64,000 bases of DNA from Acidimicrobiales bacterium (GTDB lineage: Bacteria; Actinomycetota; Acidimicrobiia; Acidimicrobiales; RAAP-2), in NCBI GenBank assembly GCA_015478655.1, contig JADMIJ010000010.1, positions 1 through 64,000 of the forward strand, written 5' to 3'. A program made the translations under genes and the position numbers. A model generated the notes under the pieces. That model saw only the letters and a program-made list of their open reading frames with translations, made no database searches and was not told the DNA's origin. This document shows positions 39,887-49,759 of the stretch, piece after piece; the stretch's first letter is position 1; each line of letters begins with the position of its first letter.

Positions 39887-39973
39887 CTCGGTCACCAGCC
39901 CGCCCACCACCGGGTACTCGGCGGCCGCGCCGGGCCCATGGCCAGGCCGGAACAGAGGCAGAAAGGCAATTTG

Positions 39974-41962
39974 ATGGGAGCCGTCACCGTGCAACTTCCC
40001 GATGGTGCGACCAGGGAGTTCGAGGAGGGCACCACGGCGTCCCAGTTCGCCGAGTCCATTGGCCCCCGACTGGCCAAGGCGGCGGTGGCGGCCACCTTCG
40101 ACGGTGCCGAGGTCGACCTGGACACACCGCTGCGAGATGGGGCCCAGGTCAGCGTCATCACTGCCGACTCCGAGGCCGGCCGCGCCGTGCTGCGTCACTC
40201 GACCGCCCACGTGCTGGCCCAGGCTGTGCTCCGGCTGTGGCCCGGCGCCCACTTCGCCATCGGGCCGGTCATCGAGGACGGCTTCTACTACGACTTCGAG
40301 CTGCCGGGCGGGGTCCATTTCAGTGACGACGACCTCGAGCGCATCGACGCCGCCATGCGCGAGATCATGGCCGAGGACCAACCTTTTGTCCGCCACGAGC
40401 ACAGCATCGAAGAGGGACTTTCGATCTTCGGCGACCAACCGTTCAAACGGGAGATCATCGAGGCGGTCGAGGCGGGACACGAGGAGGTGGACGCCGCAGC
40501 CGAGGGGGCCGGCGCCGCCCAGGTGTCGACCTACTGGAATTCGCCGACTTTCACCGACCTGTGCCGGGGCCCGCACGTCCCCTCCACCAGCCACCTGGGC
40601 CACTTCGCCCTGATGCGCGTGGCCGGGGCCTACTGGCGGGGCGATGAGAAGCGCCAGCAGCTCCAGCGCATCTACGGCACCGCGTGGGAGTCGGAGAAGG
40701 CGCTGGCCGTCCACCTCGACCGGCTGGCGGAGGCCGAGCGCAGGGACCACCGCCGCCTCGGCGCCGAGCTGGACCTGTTCTCGTTCCCCGAGGAGATCGG
40801 CTCGGGACTGCCCGTTTTCCACCCCAAGGGCGGAACCGTGCGCCGCCTCATGGAGGACTATTCGCGCCAGCGCCACGAGGCCGCCGGCTACGAGTTCGTC
40901 TACACCCCGCACATCACCAAGGCGGAGCTGTTCGAGACGTCGGGCCATCTGGACTGGTTCGCCGAGGGGATGTTCCCGCCCATGGAGCTGGACGGCGGCC
41001 AGGAGTACTACCTCAAGCCGATGAACTGCCCGTTCCACATCCTGATCTTCAAGAGCCATCAGCGTTCCTACCGCGAATTGCCCATGCGTCTCTTCGAATT
41101 CGGGTCCGTCTACCGATACGAGAAGTCGGGGGTGGTACACGGCCTGACCAGGGTGCGCGGCATGACCCAGGACGACGCGCACATCTTCTGCACCCGCGAC
41201 CAGATGGCCCACGAGCTCCACTCGACCCTCACGTTCGTCCTGTCCCTCTTGCGGGACTTCGGTCTCGACGACTTCTTCCTCGAGCTCTCGACGCGTCCCG
41301 AGGAGAAGGCCGTGGGCTCGGTCGAGGACTGGGATGAGGCCACCGAGGCCCTCCGCACTGCGGCGACGGCCATGGACCTCGAGCTGGTCATCGATGAGGG
41401 AGGCGGCGCCTTCTACGGTCCGAAGATCTCCGTGCAGGCCCGGGACGCCATCGGGCGGACCCACCAGATGTCGACCATGCAGCTCGACTTCCAGGAGCCC
41501 CAGCGGTTCGGCATGGAGTACATCGGTGCTGACAACGGTCGGCACCAGCCGGTCATGATCCACCGGGCGCTGTTCGGCTCGGTGGAGCGGTTCTTCGCCA
41601 TCCTCCTCGAACACTATGCCGGCGCGATGCCCACCTGGTTGTCGCCCGAGCAGGTCCGGGTCCTGGCGGTGAAGGACGAGCATGCGGCCTATGCCCACAA
41701 GGTGGCCGACCGCCTGCGGGCGGTGGGAGCCCGGGTCTCGGTCGATCCCGCCGACGAGCACCTGAAGGCGCGCATCCGCAAGGCCAAGGTCATGAAGATC
41801 CCCTACATCCTGGTGGTGGGCGACGACGACGTTCACGCCGGCACCGTGGGTGTCAACCGCCGGGGGAGCAACCAGCCCGAGCGCGGGGTCGAGCTCATGA
41901 CGTTCACCGACACGCTCGAGGACGAGATCGCCGGGCGCCGGATTCCCGAATCCCCATCGTGA
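39974..41962 (+). CDS. thrS: Threonyl-tRNA synthetase
   Basis: 662 residues from the ATG preceded by AAAGG at 7 bases. The N-terminal TGS domain (QLPDGATREFEEGTTASQFA, about 6-25) leads to the editing/SAD domain with RHSTAHVLAQAVL, the HxxxH zinc site of ThrRS editing. The class II core contains FETSGHLDWF, MNCPFHILIFKSHQRSYRELPMR with the zinc-binding Cys, and FGMEYIGADNGRHQPVMIHRALFGSVERFF (motif 3) near 530. The anticodon-binding domain follows to the end. An upstream in-frame ATG at 39938 would add 12 residues. The stop overlaps the HIT gene start as GTGA, so translation is coupled. Confidence 0.96.
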   Translation: MGAVTVQLPDGATREFEEGTTASQFAESIGPRLAKAAVAATFDGAEVDLDTPLRDGAQVSVITADSEAGRAVLRHSTAHVLAQAVLRLWPGAHFAIGPVIEDGFYYDFELPGGVHFSDDDLERIDAAMREIMAEDQPFVRHEHSIEEGLSIFGDQPFKREIIEAVEAGHEEVDAAAEGAGAAQVSTYWNSPTFTDLCRGPHVPSTSHLGHFALMRVAGAYWRGDEKRQQLQRIYGTAWESEKALAVHLDRLAEAERRDHRRLGAELDLFSFPEEIGSGLPVFHPKGGTVRRLMEDYSRQRHEAAGYEFVYTPHITKAELFETSGHLDWFAEGMFPPMELDGGQEYYLKPMNCPFHILIFKSHQRSYRELPMRLFEFGSVYRYEKSGVVHGLTRVRGMTQDDAHIFCTRDQMAHELHSTLTFVLSLLRDFGLDDFFLELSTRPEEKAVGSVEDWDEATEALRTAATAMDLELVIDEGGGAFYGPKISVQARDAIGRTHQMSTMQLDFQEPQRFGMEYIGADNGRHQPVMIHRALFGSVERFFAILLEHYAGAMPTWLSPEQVRVLAVKDEHAAYAHKVADRLRAVGARVSVDPADEHLKARIRKAKVMKIPYILVVGDDDVHAGTVGVNRRGSNQPERGVELMTFTDTLEDEIAGRRIPESPS

Positions 41963-42498: not shown

Positions 42499-42570
42499 GC
42501 CGGACTCACCCGGAATCGAACCGGACGGCCGGGCGTTCGACTGAGTGGGACGAGAGGAGTGGGAGTGACC

Positions 42571-43023
42571 ATGCAGGTCAAGGAGCTTGGGCACTTGGTG
42601 CTCTACGTGCGGGACGTGAAGCGATCGGCAGCCTTCTACGGCGGGGTCCTCGGCTGGGAGCCGGTGTTCCCGAATGCACCCGGGCTGCCGGTGGCGGCGT
42701 TCTCATCGGGTCGGACGCACCACGAGTTACTGCTCATCGAAGTCGGAGAAGGGGCCGCACCACTGCCGGCGGGCAGGCGGCTCGGCCTCTACCACTTCGG
42801 ACTCAAGGTGGGCGACAGCGATGACGAGCTACGGGAAGCGGCTGCACGCCTCGAGGCAGCCGGCGTGCCCGTCGTCGGCGCCACTGACCACACAGTGACC
42901 CACAGCCTGTACATCCTCGATCCCGACGGCAACGAGATCGAGCTCTATATCGACGTCCCCGGAGTGGACTGGAAGCGTGACCCGGCCCTGATCATGGCCC
43001 CGATCCGGCCCCTGTCCCTTTAG
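42571..43023 (+). CDS. VOC (glyoxalase-fold) protein
   Basis: 150 residues in one VOC domain. LGHLVLYVRDVKRSAAFYGGVLGWE (about 6-30) opens the first half, HHELLLIEV supplies a His in the expected ligand place, and LYHFGLKVGDSDDELREAAARLEAAG opens the second. DPDGNEIELYIDVPG near the end carries the last ligand (Glu) and the family NxIEL ending. A glyoxalase- or catechol-dioxygenase-like metal site is plausible. The start is uncertain because two GTG codons lie just upstream with a good AGGAG before them (GTG at 42565). It sits between the HIT gene and the PIM locus, where other actinobacteria usually have nothing. Confidence 0.85.
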   Translation: MQVKELGHLVLYVRDVKRSAAFYGGVLGWEPVFPNAPGLPVAAFSSGRTHHELLLIEVGEGAAPLPAGRRLGLYHFGLKVGDSDDELREAAARLEAAGVPVVGATDHTVTHSLYILDPDGNEIELYIDVPGVDWKRDPALIMAPIRPLSL

Positions 43024-43087
43024 CTGGACGCGGGCTCGTCAGACAGGATCGGCCGCCGGGCTCCTCGGACCGGCAGGCGGCCCTGCT

Positions 43088-43441
43088 TCACCATCCCATC
43101 CCGATGGTCCCGGGACGCCACCCTTCCTTCTCCCGCAGGCTTTGCCAGCTCTTGTCGCCGGCGGCGATCACGGTGCGCAAAAGCGATGATGCCTCTTCCT
43201 GCCAGGCCTCGAGGTCGACCGGGTAGCCGGCGATCATGGCCAGGGCGGGGTGGAGGCCATCGGGGGGAGGCAGTACCCGCCGGAGGGACCACCGCACCGC
43301 CTCTTTGGCTTCCAGGCCTGCCTCCCGCCGAAGCGCGTACTCGTACACGACCAAGCGCCAATAGGAATTGAGCTGGTCGAGGGGGTTGGCGACGCCGGAC
43401 GTCGGCTCCGGATGCTGGGCCATCGTCTGATGAAGGGCCAT
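43088..43441 (-). CDS. Hypothetical protein
   Basis: 117 residues from the chosen ATG, with helical segments LNSYWRLVVYEYALRREAGLEAKEAVRWSLRRVL (about 22-55) and AWQEEASSLLRTVIAAGDKSWQSLREKEGW. No family recognised; amino-acid use is regular and protein-like. The frame extends 27 codons further upstream. It converges on the preceding VOC gene 64 bases away and is divergent from the PIM lipid locus. A real gene is likely but unproven. Confidence 0.5.
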   Translation of the reverse strand: MALHQTMAQHPEPTSGVANPLDQLNSYWRLVVYEYALRREAGLEAKEAVRWSLRRVLPPPDGLHPALAMIAGYPVDLEAWQEEASSLLRTVIAAGDKSWQSLREKEGWRPGTIGMGW

Positions 43442-43713
43442 TGCTCGTTCATCGGCACGCCACCACCCGACTTGAGGTGAAATTCGCCCCGCCACCGCCC
43501 GAGTCAGCCCCATAGCGTGCATCCCATGGGTGCATCCCGGTGGAACACGTTCCCGGCTACAGCACGAGGTGCTCGATCGAGAGCGGGACGGTGTGGTCGA
43601 CAGCCGCCCAGGCTGGGATTGGCAGCTCGCCAGGGTGGTTCCGCCAGTGGTGGTGTGGCGGCAACTCCAGCAAGCAGATGGTAGGGTCTGATGAGCCTTC
43701 TGGAGGAAATGCC

Positions 43714-44490
43714 ATGTTTGACGGGCGATGGCGCGACACGGTCGACCGGGGTACCGGTCCCGTCGGTCGCAGGCTGCAGCGGTTCGGCATCACCGCCGAC
43801 ATGCTGACCGCCACCGGGTTGATCTCCGCTACCGCCACAGCCGTGGCCGTGGGCACAGGCCACTTCCTGTTGGCCCTGGCGTTGCTGATCCTCACCGGCT
43901 TGCACGACCTGTTGGACGGGCCGGTGGCCAAGGCATCCGGGACATCGTCGGTGCGCGGTGCCTTCTTCGATTCGGTCACCGACCGGGTTGCCGATGCCGT
44001 GATCCTCGGTGGTGTGGCGTGGTATCTCGTGTCAGCCCACCCCGGGCATCTCGTCCTCCTGCCCTTCGCCGTGCTCGGGGCCACGTCACTGGTCTCCTAC
44101 CAGCGGGCCAAGGCGGAATCGCTGGGCATCGTGGCCAAGGGTGGACTGATGGAGCGGGCCGAGCGCATGATCCTCCTGGGGATCGGATTGCTCTCCACAG
44201 CATTTCTGGTCCCTGTTCTCTGGGTCATGCTGGCGCTCACCGTGGCCACCGCGGTGGGACGTTTCGTCAAGGTGTGGCGCCTGGCCGAGGCGCCCGTCAT
44301 CGGAGCCAGTCCCCGGCGCCACCGCCGCACCCGCACCACGGTCCGCGTCGGCGGGCGCAGCTCGTCGGCCTCACCATCCCGGTGGAGGGCTCGCCGGCAG
44401 GGGGAACTGGCCAGTCGGTCCGGTCGCACCTGGCGCGCCCGACATGCCCGCCAGGGCATCCGGCAGCGCGCCGGCCGTCGCCATCCCTGA
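43714..44490 (+). CDS. pgsA: CDP-alcohol phosphatidyltransferase (phosphatidylinositol-phosphate synthase type)
   Basis: 258 residues with about five to six hydrophobic segments. The family signature DxxDGxxAR...GxxxDxxxD is visible as D65-LL-D68-G-PVAK, then G82-AFF-D86-SVT-D90, where the usual Arg after Ala is Lys; the four Asp residues bind the two metal ions. By order (thrS, HIT, this, acyltransferase, pimA) it matches PgsA1, which makes phosphatidylinositol phosphate from CDP-diacylglycerol. The last 60 residues form an exceptionally Arg-rich, probably disordered tail (RRHRRTRTT ... RRHP). GGAGGAAAT just before the ATG is a good ribosome site and fixes the start 58 codons inside the open frame. 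Confidence 0.88.
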   Translation: MFDGRWRDTVDRGTGPVGRRLQRFGITADMLTATGLISATATAVAVGTGHFLLALALLILTGLHDLLDGPVAKASGTSSVRGAFFDSVTDRVADAVILGGVAWYLVSAHPGHLVLLPFAVLGATSLVSYQRAKAESLGIVAKGGLMERAERMILLGIGLLSTAFLVPVLWVMLALTVATAVGRFVKVWRLAEAPVIGASPRRHRRTRTTVRVGGRSSSASPSRWRARRQGELASRSGRTWRARHARQGIRQRAGRRHP

Positions 44491-44523
44491 GTCGCTCGGC
44501 CGCCGGTTGATCCTCGGGCGCTC

Positions 44524-45423
44524 GTGAACAAGGGACGCGTCGTCTTTCGGACCTACGCCGTCCTCGGTCGGTGCCTGTCCGCCGTGCCCGAGCCGGTGGC
44601 GCTGGGCGTGGCGAACCGCGTCGGGGACGTGATGTTCAGGGTGCGGCACCAGCACCGCCGGATGGTGGTCAACAATCTGCGCCGGGTGCTGGACGCCGAC
44701 ACTTCGGACGCGATGGTCCTCGACCAGTGGGCGCGTCGATCGTTTCGGGCCTACGCTCGGTACTGGGTCGAAGGGGCCCAGCTCGGAAGTACGTCGCCCA
44801 TCGAGGTGGAGCAACGCACGCTTTGTGAGGGCCTCGAGCATCTTGTGGATGGGATGGCAGCCGGTAGGGGGGTCATCATGGCACTACCCCACGTTGGGAG
44901 CTGGGAGTTCGGGGGCGCGTTTCTGGCAACGCAGGACATGCCGATGACCGCGGTCGCCGAGCGGATCGAGCCGCCGGAGCTCTTCGACTATTTCGTGGAG
45001 CAGCGGGCCGCCATGGGATTGACCATCGTTCCGCTCGACGCATCCTCGGGGAGCTCGATCATGGCCGCCCTCCGGGGGGGGCGACTGGTCGGACTGCTGA
45101 GCGACCGCGACCTGGCCGGCACCGGCGTGGATGTGGAGTTCTTCGGTGAGAAGACGACCATGCCGGCGGGTCCCGCCATGCTGGCGCTCCGGTCCGGTGC
45201 CACCCTGGTGACCGGCGCCGTCTACAGCGGCCCGGGCGCAGACCACCGGGCCGTCGTCGAGCCGCCTCTCGATACCACCCGTCACGGGTCCCTGCGGTCG
45301 GACGTGGCCCGGCTCACCCAGGAGATCGCCACCCGGTTCGAGGGGCTGATCCGCCGCGCTCCCGAGCAGTGGCATGTGTTCCAACCCCTGTGGCCGATGG
45401 ACCGCCCGGAGGGGTTGGCGTGA
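44524..45423 (+). CDS. patA: Lysophospholipid acyltransferase family protein (PIM acyltransferase, PatA-type)
   Basis: 299 residues. The acyltransferase catalytic box is HVGSWE (H123 and E128; HX4E in place of HX4D), followed by LATQDMPMTAVAERIEPPELF and the glycine-rich LLSDRDLAGTGV (about 193-204), as in the HtrB/PatA subgroup. In this locus the expected product is acylated phosphatidylinositol mannoside, matching the gene order of mycobacteria. The GTG start is 33 bases after the synthase stop; its own stop overlaps the next gene as GTGA. Confidence 0.87.
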   Translation: MNKGRVVFRTYAVLGRCLSAVPEPVALGVANRVGDVMFRVRHQHRRMVVNNLRRVLDADTSDAMVLDQWARRSFRAYARYWVEGAQLGSTSPIEVEQRTLCEGLEHLVDGMAAGRGVIMALPHVGSWEFGGAFLATQDMPMTAVAERIEPPELFDYFVEQRAAMGLTIVPLDASSGSSIMAALRGGRLVGLLSDRDLAGTGVDVEFFGEKTTMPAGPAMLALRSGATLVTGAVYSGPGADHRAVVEPPLDTTRHGSLRSDVARLTQEIATRFEGLIRRAPEQWHVFQPLWPMDRPEGLA

Positions 45424-47297
45424 CCAAGTACGAGAGCCGGGCCCTTCCCGGAGACTCGGTCTTCGAGGTATTCGGTCCATCCGCCCCCGGCCGGTCGGCC
45501 CCCGGTCGTCCCGCGCCCGCCTCCCGACCCGTCCCCGGTCTGGACAGCAGGCGTCCCCGCTCGGTCGGCGAGCCGCGGTTCCATGCGCTGGGCGAGCACG
45601 AGTTCGATGTCGTGGTCGTCATCAGCGCTGAGGGTCGCTTCATCTTCGTGAGCGCTTCGGCCGAATGGTTGTTCGGGTACGACATCAGCAATGCCATCGG
45701 GACGAACGCCTTCGCCTTGTTCGACAACCTCAGCGTCGAGCCGGTGCGCGCCCTCTTCAGCGACCTGGTGGCTCGTCGCCGGCTCTCCGTGGCGCTCGAG
45801 ATGCGCACCCTGCGGGCGGACGGGACACCCATCGACATCGATGTCGTGGCGGCCAATCATCTCGACGACCCCATCGGTGGGATCGTCGTCAACATCAGGG
45901 ACATCACCGAGCGCAAGCGTCTCGAGCAGCGCATCCGCGACGTGGATCGCCGCCAGTCCACCATCATCGAGTCACTGGCTGATGGGGTGCTGATGGTGGA
46001 TTCGGCCGGGACGGTCATCCGGGTCAACGAGGCGTTCGAAGTGATGTTCGACGTCCCCCGGATCCGGTTGCTCGGAGAGCACCTGGAATCCATCCTGGCC
46101 CGGGAACGCTCGAACGGCCTCGAGCTCTTCGATGTCGAGGGGGATCCGATCACGGTGGACGACCACCCCATTGCCACGAGCCTGCGAGGCGGGCGGAGAT
46201 CAGTTGGGGTCGTGCTCGGAATGCGTCGACGCGGCCGGCAGCCCATGTGGGTCCGGGCCAACGCCCGGGCCATGGTGGCCGGCGACGGATCGGTCGCCGG
46301 CGCGGTGGCCTCGTTCACCGACATCACCGCAGCGCGCCAATCCGCGGCCGAGCTCCGTCGAGAGGAGCGGTTCCTCCAGGTGCTGCTCGATACCTTGGAA
46401 GAGGGGATCGTGGCCTGTGACGCCGACGGGCGCATCACGGTGTTCAATCCTTCGGCCCGGCGCCTGCACGGGCTGCACAACGGATCCGATCCGATCGGAA
46501 GAATCCCGACCGATCAGGGTCTCCTCCGCCCCGATGGATCGCCCATGCCGCAACGAGAGAACCCGCTGATCCGAGCCATGTCCGGCGAGCAGCTGCGCGA
46601 TGTCCCCATCGTCCTCGAGTCGGGCAGCGGCGAACGGCGCAAGGTCAGTGTGAACGGGCAGGCGCTGGTCGATGACGATGGATGGATGCTCGGAGCGGTG
46701 GTGGCCATGCACGACGTCACCGAACAGAAGTTGAACGAGGAGCGGTTGTCCGAGCTGGCCCTCCACGACCCTCTCACCGGACTGGCCAACCGCACCCTCC
46801 TGGCCGAGCGTCTGCGACAGGCCATCGACGGGTTGACCCAGCAGTCCCAGGCCGCTCCCTCCCCGGCGGTTGACGAGGGTGAGGGAGGCCAGCGGGGCGT
46901 GGCCGTCTACCTGCTCGACCTCGATGACTTCAAGGAGATCAACGACGTGTTCGGACACGATGTGGGCGACGACCTGCTGGTCGCCGTGGCCGGTCGGCTC
47001 TCCGGCATCGTGCGGCCCTCGGACACCGTGGCCCGCCTGGGAGGAGACGAGTTCGTGGTGGTCTGCGACATCGAGAACGGCGAGGAGGAGATGCTCGCCA
47101 TCGCCGACCGGATCTCAACGGCTCTGGCCCGCGACTATCGCATCGACGGTCGCACACTGACCGTGCTGGCTTCGGTGGGCGGGGTGTTTGCGGACAATCC
47201 CGATACCGACCCGTCGAAATTGTTGAGTAGGGCCGACGACGCCATGTACGGCGTCAAGTGGACACGGCGTAGGGAACGCCGATCCACCGCGGACTGA
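45420..47297 (+). CDS. PAS-PAS-PAS-GGDEF diguanylate cyclase inside the PIM locus
   Basis: 625 residues. After a Pro/Ser-rich head (residues 1-55), three PAS domains follow (about 57-170, 171-305, 306-430); PAS1 ends DITERKRLEQR, and PAS2 begins STIIESLADGVLMVD. The C-terminal GGDEF domain begins DPLTGLANRTLLAERL (about 452) and contains the catalytic GGDEF intact (541-545). An RxxD inhibitory site (RPSD, 532-535) lies exactly five residues before it, so product inhibition is expected. No EAL domain is present. It makes c-di-GMP in the cytosol. The GTG start overlaps the acyltransferase stop, and pimA starts 4 bases after its own stop. The known order of this locus in actinobacteria has no such gene. 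Confidence 0.92.
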   Translation: MTKYESRALPGDSVFEVFGPSAPGRSAPGRPAPASRPVPGLDSRRPRSVGEPRFHALGEHEFDVVVVISAEGRFIFVSASAEWLFGYDISNAIGTNAFALFDNLSVEPVRALFSDLVARRRLSVALEMRTLRADGTPIDIDVVAANHLDDPIGGIVVNIRDITERKRLEQRIRDVDRRQSTIIESLADGVLMVDSAGTVIRVNEAFEVMFDVPRIRLLGEHLESILARERSNGLELFDVEGDPITVDDHPIATSLRGGRRSVGVVLGMRRRGRQPMWVRANARAMVAGDGSVAGAVASFTDITAARQSAAELRREERFLQVLLDTLEEGIVACDADGRITVFNPSARRLHGLHNGSDPIGRIPTDQGLLRPDGSPMPQRENPLIRAMSGEQLRDVPIVLESGSGERRKVSVNGQALVDDDGWMLGAVVAMHDVTEQKLNEERLSELALHDPLTGLANRTLLAERLRQAIDGLTQQSQAAPSPAVDEGEGGQRGVAVYLLDLDDFKEINDVFGHDVGDDLLVAVAGRLSGIVRPSDTVARLGGDEFVVVCDIENGEEEMLAIADRISTALARDYRIDGRTLTVLASVGGVFADNPDTDPSKLLSRADDAMYGVKWTRRRERRSTAD

Positions 47298-47301
47298 CCG
47301 G

Positions 47302-48507
47302 TTGGACGCACATCTCCCGTCGACACCAGGGTCCCAACGCATCGCCCTCGTGTGCCCGTACAGCCTGTCGCGGCCCGGTGGGGTCCAAGGCCAGGTGTTG
47401 GGCCTCGCCCGCACCCTCGAGACCAGGGGTCATCGGGCCACCGTGTTCGCCCCGGCTGACGGTCTGGCCGCGGTCCCGGCCGATGTCGACGTGGTGGTCA
47501 CCGGTCATTCGGTCCCGCTGCGGGCCAACGGCTCTGTCGCCCCGGTGAACCTCTCGGTCGGATCGGTGCGACGTGGCCTGCGAACACTGCGCGCCATCGG
47601 GTTCGATGTGGTGCACGTGCACGAGCCGTTCACGCCGGGCCTTCCCTACGGACTGCTGATCGGCCGGGACCTCCCGCCCCTGGTGGCCACGTTCCACCGC
47701 AGCGGCGGAAGTCCGTTCTACTCGGCGCTGCGCCCACTGACCCGGCGGTTGGCCCGCCGATTCGCAGTCCGGTGCGCGGTGTCCGAGGCGGCGCGGTCCA
47801 CCGCCTTCGACGCGCTGGGCGGCACCTACGAGATCGGGTTCAACGGGATCGAGTCGGACCGGTTCCGAGGGGTCGATCCGTGGCCGACCGATCGTCCCGC
47901 CGTCCTGTTCCTCGGCCGCCATGAAGAGCGCAAGGGCCTGCGGGTGCTCCTCGAGGCCGCAGACCGACTGGGTGCGACCACCGGGCCCGGGGACGGCGGG
48001 GGACCGGCGAGCCGGCCCGTGCTGTGGATCGCCGGCGACGGGCCGCAGACCGGTGCCCTGCGGCGTCTCCACCCGGAGTCCCCGGACGTCAAGTGGCTCG
48101 GCGCGCTCTCCGAGGAGGAGAAGGTGCGTCGCCTGGTGGCCGCCCGGGTGCTGTGCGCGCCCTCCCTCGCGGGCGAGTCGTTCGGGATCGTGCTGCTGGA
48201 GGCCATGGCGGCCCGTACGGTGGTCGTGGCCAGCAACATCGATGGCTACCGGGATGCCGCCGCCGGACATGCCGTCCTGGTGCCACCCGGTGATGCCGGC
48301 TCGTTGGCCCAGGCGCTGGCCGGGGTGCTGGAGGGGACGACCGCCGTTCTGCCGGGCGACACCGGCGGAGCCGGCTCCGACCTCGACGACGGCCGAGGCC
48401 ATTGGCTGGACGCCGCCGCCGGACGGACCTCTCAGCAGTCGATGGAACGATTGGCCGAGTGGTACGAGGGGATCTACCGGTCGGCGGTGGTCGGGCACGG
48501 GGGTTGA
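47302..48507 (+). CDS. pimA: Phosphatidylinositol mannosyltransferase (GT4)
   Basis: 401 residues starting at TTG. The GT4 acceptor loop is CPYSLSRPGGVQGQVLGLARTLE (about 18-40), the conserved VHVHEPFTPGLPY follows (about 111-123) and the substrate-binding FNGIESDRF near 180. The donor-binding domain has FLGRHEERKGLRVLLEAA and CAPSLAGESFGIVLLEAMAARTVVVASNIDGYRD (about 290-323), the EX7E signature of PimA-type enzymes. It transfers the first mannose from GDP-mannose to phosphatidylinositol at the inner membrane face. It follows the cyclase gene and precedes the M48 peptidase gene. The start is 4 bases after the cyclase stop. Confidence 0.92.
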   Translation: MDAHLPSTPGSQRIALVCPYSLSRPGGVQGQVLGLARTLETRGHRATVFAPADGLAAVPADVDVVVTGHSVPLRANGSVAPVNLSVGSVRRGLRTLRAIGFDVVHVHEPFTPGLPYGLLIGRDLPPLVATFHRSGGSPFYSALRPLTRRLARRFAVRCAVSEAARSTAFDALGGTYEIGFNGIESDRFRGVDPWPTDRPAVLFLGRHEERKGLRVLLEAADRLGATTGPGDGGGPASRPVLWIAGDGPQTGALRRLHPESPDVKWLGALSEEEKVRRLVAARVLCAPSLAGESFGIVLLEAMAARTVVVASNIDGYRDAAAGHAVLVPPGDAGSLAQALAGVLEGTTAVLPGDTGGAGSDLDDGRGHWLDAAAGRTSQQSMERLAEWYEGIYRSAVVGHGG

Positions 48508-48529
48508 GCGGCCGTACACTGCGGGGACC

Positions 48530-49759
48530 ATGGATGACTCCCCGGAACGTCCCGATCCAGGCGGATCGTCGAGCAAGGCTCCCGCCGACGGGGCCGAGGC
48601 GCCCAGTGGCCGACCTCCTGGCAGCCGATCCGGCAATCGCAATCGGAATCGCAATCGGAATCGCAGCCGGGGAGGCGGAGGTGGCGCGTCGGCAGGGGCT
48701 GGTGGCGGTCGCCCCGACGGCAACCGGTCCCACGGGAACCGCGGCGGGGGCGGGGCCTCGGCCAACCCCGGAGGTGGGAGAGGGCAGTCGAGCGGGCGGT
48801 CGGGGAGCGGAAGGGCCTCGGGTGCGGGACGATCTGGCACCGGTGGGTCGGGTCGGAATTCGGCGCGCCCTGACGGTGCCGCCCGCCCGGGCGTCGAGGC
48901 GTCCCGGTCGACGGCGGTCAACCCCGCCGTATCGGCGACCGACCTCGCCGCCGGCGTGGACGAGGAGGCTGCTGTCCGGGCCAACCGGCGACGGGCCATG
49001 ACGATCTGTCTGGCACCGGGTGGGGCGGCAGGGGTGATCGCGGGACTGGTCTTGGCTGTTGCCGGGCTTCCGTTGATCGGTGCCGCCGCCTTCGTACTGG
49101 CTACCGCGGTCATCGCGCTGTGGCTCTGGCACCGAGCGCCGGGCGTTCTCATCAGATCGCTGGGAGCCAGCCTGAGCGATGAGTGGGAACACCCGCGGCT
49201 GCACAATCTGGTGGATGGCCTGTGCGCCACCATGGGGCTTCCCCGGCCCACTGTCTGTGTGGTCGACAGTCCCGTACCCAACGCCATGGCGGTCGGTCGG
49301 GACCCGGACTCGGCGTCCCTGGTGGTCACCTCGGGGCTCGAGTGCTCCCTGACGTTGGTGGAGTTGGAGGGGGCGCTGGCTCACGAGTTGGTGCACATCA
49401 AGCGTCAGGACACGGCGGCGGCCGGGGTGGCCGTGGTGGTCGCGGCTCCGGTGGCGGCGCTCATCGGTTTGGGGAAGGCCACCGAGTGGGTGCACGCGCT
49501 CATCGGCCAGGGCCGCGAGCTCTCGGCTGATCAGCGGGCCTCAGCGGTGGTGCGCTATCCCCCGGGCATCGCCTCCGCCCTCGACACCATGGTCAGCGGG
49601 GAGCATGCCGGCTCACCGTGGCCGCCGGGCCGGGGGCGGCTGGCGGCACTGACCCGCTGGCTGTGGATCGACCCGATGGTCGGGGCCCAGGCCGGCGATC
49701 CCACAGCGGGCAATCTCGACGACACTCGGGTGCGGTCCGCGGCCCTGGCCCTGGACTGA
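48530..49759 (+). CDS. M48-family membrane metalloprotease with a long disordered N-terminal region
   Basis: 409 residues. Residues 1-130 are a low-complexity region (Gly, Arg, Asn, Ser); a tandem RN repeat occupies about 35-48, reflected as a 12-base repeat in the DNA. Two hydrophobic segments follow at about 158-205. The catalytic domain has the zinc motif HELVH (285-289) and the third ligand in ELSADQRA (about 326-333), as in HtpX-type M48 peptidases. It is expected to face the cytosol or membrane interior and to degrade membrane proteins. The ATG follows the pimA stop by 22 bases. A -10-like TACACT sits 9 bases before the start. Confidence 0.85.
   Translation: MDDSPERPDPGGSSSKAPADGAEAPSGRPPGSRSGNRNRNRNRNRSRGGGGGASAGAGGGRPDGNRSHGNRGGGGASANPGGGRGQSSGRSGSGRASGAGRSGTGGSGRNSARPDGAARPGVEASRSTAVNPAVSATDLAAGVDEEAAVRANRRRAMTICLAPGGAAGVIAGLVLAVAGLPLIGAAAFVLATAVIALWLWHRAPGVLIRSLGASLSDEWEHPRLHNLVDGLCATMGLPRPTVCVVDSPVPNAMAVGRDPDSASLVVTSGLECSLTLVELEGALAHELVHIKRQDTAAAGVAVVVAAPVAALIGLGKATEWVHALIGQGRELSADQRASAVVRYPPGIASALDTMVSGEHAGSPWPPGRGRLAALTRWLWIDPMVGAQAGDPTAGNLDDTRVRSAALALD

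Follow-up and report, generated by a model that had tools for sequence, protein, structure and literature searches.

The closest described counterpart of the locus analysed here is the mycobacterial PI/PIM cluster Rv2614c-Rv2609c, which consists of thrS, a HIT-domain gene, pgsA, patA, pimA and a gene encoding a mutT-domain protein (PMC3229680). Mycobacteria cannot do without the first PIM steps, as reported for pgsA in M. tuberculosis and for pimA in M. smegmatis (PMC3229680). On the signalling side, c-di-GMP is known to act on mycobacterial mycolic acid synthesis through Lsr2/HadD (PMC10808224). In the open-licence literature, we found no paper linking a diguanylate cyclase to the PIM locus, none describing second-messenger regulation of the first PIM steps and nothing relevant on c-di-GMP in Acidimicrobiia.

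The window, i.e. the whole stretch of 64,000 nucleotides that we analysed, belongs to the 4.47-Mb draft genome of an Acidimicrobiales bacterium (G000, contig C169). Its genes follow the same thrS-HIT-pgsA-patA-pimA order, but it differs from the mycobacterial cluster by two genes, one for a cyclase that separates patA from pimA and one for an M48 peptidase that follows pimA. The first-pass annotation had stated that mycobacteria have pgsA, patA and pimA in this order with no cyclase between them, in agreement with the published cluster (PMC3229680). In the window, the three genes are arranged in that order on one strand and the cyclase is their sole interruption, while no Rv2609c-type gene was identified beside pimA. 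The features of the locus are the following:

39938..41962, forward strand: thrS, which encodes threonyl-tRNA synthetase and opens the conserved cluster (Pfam tRNA-synt_2b, TGS and tRNA_SAD), at a position matching Rv2614c (PMC3229680)
41959..42498, forward strand: HIT-domain protein, Rv2613c position (Pfam HIT; NCBIfam ATPAdlTfActino below its cut-off)
42559..43023, forward strand: VOC/glyoxalase-like protein (Pfam Glyoxalase), present in only some relatives
43714..44490, forward strand: pgsA, CDP-alcohol phosphatidyltransferase of the PI-phosphate synthase type (domain models; solved PI/PIP synthases)
44524..45423, forward strand: patA, PIM acyltransferase (NCBIfam NF005919; solved PatA)
45420..45423, forward strand: GTGA, 4-nt overlap of the cyclase start with the patA stop
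45420..47297, forward strand: PAS-PAS-PAS-GGDEF diguanylate cyclase, 625 amino acids (Pfam, motifs, AlphaFold, hydrophobicity)
47302..48507, forward strand: pimA, PI mannosyltransferase, TTG start (solved PimA, E 6e-49; Pfam GT4 domains)
48530..49759, forward strand: M48 (HtpX-like) peptidase, downstream of pimA (Pfam Peptidase_M48)

The PatA protein scores 254.6 bits against the NCBIfam PIM acyltransferase model NF005919 (cut-off 209) and matches the solved mycobacterial PatA structures with an E of 4e-45. The M48 peptidase gene comes after pimA in most relatives. Its product has an Arg/Asn/Gly-rich N-terminus, and its position, which is the one occupied by Rv2609c in mycobacteria, is kept in many Acidimicrobiales genomes.

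The cyclase had been described in the first-pass annotation as a complete PAS-PAS-PAS-GGDEF protein with intact GGDEF and RxxD sites, encoded between patA and pimA, and its open reading frame, Pfam matches and motifs all confirm this. The frame is complete, from a GTG start at 45420 to a stop ending at 47297, and Pfam recognises three PAS stretches and one GGDEF domain (PF00990, 127 bits). Residues 1-60 are disordered and are followed by PAS1 (about 61-170), PAS2 (about 178-310), PAS3 (about 318-437) and GGDEF (447-617). The motifs RPSD...RLGGDEF, DLDDFKEIND and GHDVGDD and the C-terminal K are all intact, and include the RLGGDEF motif and the metal-binding Asp (DLDDFK) by which we recognised GGDEF members. 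The RxxD inhibitory site, common but not universal among diguanylate cyclases, lies 5 residues ahead of GGDEF (RPSD-TVARL-GGDEF). With its catalytic residues intact, the protein is expected to make c-di-GMP, and it should be soluble, since a scan of its sequence returned no hydrophobic segments. The AlphaFold model, based on 22 sequences (mean pLDDT 83), shows a disordered N-terminus, three PAS folds, long joining helices and the GGDEF domain. Foldseek matched it, at low whole-model TM-scores, to DosP, FixL, LOV and other PAS proteins, and no PAS ligand could be assigned from these matches.

The gene junctions are also as first annotated, with the GTGA overlap at 45420..45423 and pimA beginning four bases past the cyclase (stop ending at 47297, TTG at 47302). 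Alternative in-frame cyclase starts lie upstream at -34 and -54, but orthologs favour the -4 start. A scan of positions 43000-48700, weak for high-GC actinobacteria, found nothing resembling a terminator and, within the cyclase gene, a single weak promoter-like site.

Conservation across genera had been proposed as support for a functional role, and restriction of the cyclase to this genome as its refutation. Orthologs were found in three families, all between patA and pimA, so that the gene is not peculiar to this genome. Within the family of the window (f1; 150 genomes from 21 genera searched), 19 genomes from 5 of the 21 genera carry the ortholog, in every case in the patA-pimA slot. Among genomes of the same genus it sits there wherever the locus was recovered (11 genomes plus that of the window), and likewise in G015. 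One genome, G017, has no cyclase while two congeners do; as its patA and pimA adjoin, the gene was most simply lost cleanly. Most genera of the family, and most of Acidimicrobiales, also lack the cyclase; this and the loss in G017 mean that PIM synthesis does not require it. Members vary in form. The one of G326/L122 is short, with one PAS, and in a genome of the same genus (G002, L049) the slot cyclase is strongly diverged (43% identity): its motif reads SGDEF, its N-terminal linker is long and its C-terminus is extended. Ahead of PAS1, the orthologs L043, L047, L048 and L049 carry a linker of low complexity that is rich in Asn and Gly (NGNGNG...) and differs greatly in length among species.

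Beyond the family, a scan of the PAS region against the genomes of 84,980 species returned 80 loci. The best 23 of these 80, together with L131, all lie between patA and pimA, whereas the remaining loci have no patA or pimA nearby; the matches include cultured Aciditerrimonas ferrireducens MV1 (L121). An order-wide search added G145, G176 and G247 from a second family (f45) and G229 from a third (f61), and inspection of loci added G119 and G151 as slot carriers. About 27 genomes thus carry this cyclase type in the slot, each counted once, many records being duplicates of one genome under two names: 19 in f1, 5 in f45 (including Aciditerrimonas ferrireducens and two records assigned to this family from the PatA/PimA tree) and 3, encoding more distant cyclases, in f61. 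The GGDEF motif reads SGDEF in G002 and GGDEL in Aciditerrimonas; all other members keep GGDEF, the metal-binding Asp and RxxD, the last being conserved in f1, f45 and f61. A chance find in one genome is ruled out by the slot orthologs in other genomes and families, and gene order across these loci indicates that the cyclase gene has long been kept between patA and pimA in one branch of Acidimicrobiales (soil and acid-water actinobacteria).

The same holds for the junction itself. Overlaps of 4 nt are frequent in bacterial operons, so it is long conservation that counts rather than the overlap as such: the exact 4-nt overlap with patA is kept in 23 of the 24 members from the first two families, across PatA identities of 48 to 78%, and pimA usually starts 4-17 nt downstream of the cyclase. 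The overlap is not kept in the third-family cyclases. With dN/dS values of about 0.19-0.28 between the window and its relatives, within the range of patA and pimA and only rough because dS is high, the cyclase is evidently under purifying selection, and these values together with the intact motifs rule out a pseudogene. The cyclase tree has 9 of 15 splits in common with the PatA+PimA tree, every well-supported split of the latter recurs in it, and the cyclase accordingly shares the history of patA and pimA. We rejected a recent arrival of the gene in this genome, whether by insertion or by horizontal gain, since the trees agree and the GC and GC3 of the gene match those of its neighbours. As negative control we took one paralog of the same genome (L003) with the same architecture of three PAS domains and a GGDEF. 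It was detected in only 4 of the other 13 genomes of the genus and in a single further genus, and had no conserved flanking genes within 1.5 kb on either side, so that, as far as a single control can tell, a conserved context is unusual for such cyclases here. The conserved overlap, purifying selection and this control together give good support to stable co-expression of the cyclase with PI/PIM synthesis.

We thus propose, with a probability of roughly 0.6, that a soluble diguanylate cyclase became an integral part of the PI/PIM cluster in a common ancestor of two or more related families and was retained there through selection for co-expression. A single transcript with translational coupling would run from pgsA to pimA (43714-48507), of which the 4-nt overlap, the 4-nt gap and the lack of a terminator-like site are indirect signs, and the cyclase would therefore be made in step with the enzymes starting mannolipid synthesis. 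A cytoplasmic cue would tune its activity through the three PAS domains, and product inhibition would come from RxxD. The c-di-GMP would most likely act on envelope-related outputs generally, not necessarily on the PIM enzymes. The place of the cyclase in the mannolipid operon suggests, but does not prove, that production of the signal goes together with that of envelope lipids.

The genome encodes about 15 GGDEF matches, which weakens the case for a unique role of this cyclase, 10 or more EAL domains and, as far as found, only one PilZ protein (L261:4-1950, G000:C304; 648 amino acids), away from the PIM locus. The latter joins a GT2 glycan-synthase-like part to a PilZ domain at its C-terminus (BcsA-like) and is a candidate c-di-GMP target; since the sole PilZ is fused to such a domain, an envelope-related target is plausible. 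In pgsA, patA and pimA, Pfam and NCBIfam recognised no c-di-GMP-binding domain.

Cyclases of this type are not the only occupants of the slot. In a fourth family (f7), nine genomes have there a different, membrane-bound PAS-GGDEF-EAL protein (L071:5845-8520 and L192-L200) with about 9 hydrophobic segments, one PAS and GGDEF and EAL domains with both motifs intact; it lacks both RxxD and the 4-nt overlap. Both patA and pimA adjoin it in 5 of the 9 loci, and one of the two lies within the available sequence in the other 4. In a tree of GGDEF domains, the f7 proteins form their own clade (support 100) apart from that of f1 and f45 (99), and the f61 cyclases form another (98) on a long branch. This topology points to two supported independent arrivals of c-di-GMP enzymes in the slot and a possible one, f61 being counted only as possible because of its uncertain placement and long branch. 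On a PatA/PimA tree that includes genomes without the gene, the presence and absence of either enzyme type needs about 8 changes, implying several gains and losses. In an order-wide survey of PatA loci, pimA lies next to patA in most families, and in others the two are separated by diverse unrelated inserts, including, as judged by eye from sequence, an ATPase resembling class III adenylate cyclases, a peptide-binding protein and an SDR enzyme. In G034 (L056:2900-5700) the insert appears by eye to resemble class III adenylate cyclases and to include an ATPase part, and would be another nucleotide second-messenger enzyme in the slot. We did not accept recurrent insertion alone as proof of function, because the slot tolerates unrelated genes in other families.

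This tolerance would also suit a cyclase that landed by chance in a housekeeping operon and was kept for steady, growth-linked expression, with targets unrelated to mannolipids. Such a history would agree with a locus that works without the cyclase in G017, with pgsA, patA and pimA showing no recognised c-di-GMP-binding domain and with the only PilZ protein being encoded elsewhere. We nevertheless consider it somewhat unlikely, given the exclusive occupancy of the slot, the overlap conserved across deep divergence, the fixation of a second, unrelated c-di-GMP enzyme family at the same place and the lack of any such conservation in the control paralog. Reading the GGDEF domain as degenerate, a scaffold or a c-di-GMP/GTP sensor rather than an enzyme, could appeal to the SGDEF of G002 and the GGDEL of Aciditerrimonas, but is very improbable when the other members all keep the GGDEF motif, the metal-binding Asp and RxxD.

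The first-pass annotation had also suggested a tie of mannolipid production to the c-di-GMP level or to the cyclase as a local sensor; a direct control of this kind is possible. In its local form, the cyclase or its c-di-GMP would regulate PatA/PimA on the spot and PIM synthesis would follow the PAS signal, as the position between both enzymes, the translational overlap, the repeated arrival of c-di-GMP enzymes in the slot and the promotion of mycobacterial mycolic acid synthesis by c-di-GMP via Lsr2 (PMC10808224) might suggest. PatA and PimA have no known c-di-GMP-binding domain, however, and the pathway runs without the cyclase in most relatives, which makes this form quite improbable. The broader idea that c-di-GMP is a dedicated regulator of PIM synthesis in Acidimicrobiales, different c-di-GMP enzymes having been recruited to the slot independently two or three times because c-di-GMP controls PIM formation or turnover, seems to us unlikely. 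Stable co-expression within the PI/PIM cluster is the reading that we retain.

Together, the conserved operon cyclase and the other c-di-GMP enzyme family seen in this slot in f7 offer a natural connection of c-di-GMP with mannolipids that is concrete and open to testing, and Aciditerrimonas ferrireducens is a cultured organism in which this link can be examined. The protein resembles known PAS-GGDEF cyclases, such as the solved PA0861 and the LOV-activated 8c05, and the fold match DosP, in having PAS modules joined by helices to GGDEF, and differs from them by its three cytoplasmic PAS domains, the lack of an EAL domain and its position in a lipid operon. With the Lsr2/HadD system (PMC10808224) the locus shares a tie between c-di-GMP and actinobacterial envelope lipid synthesis; there, however, the regulator is a DNA-binding protein acting on a mycolic acid gene, and neither a lipid-operon cyclase nor PIMs are involved, unlike in the window.
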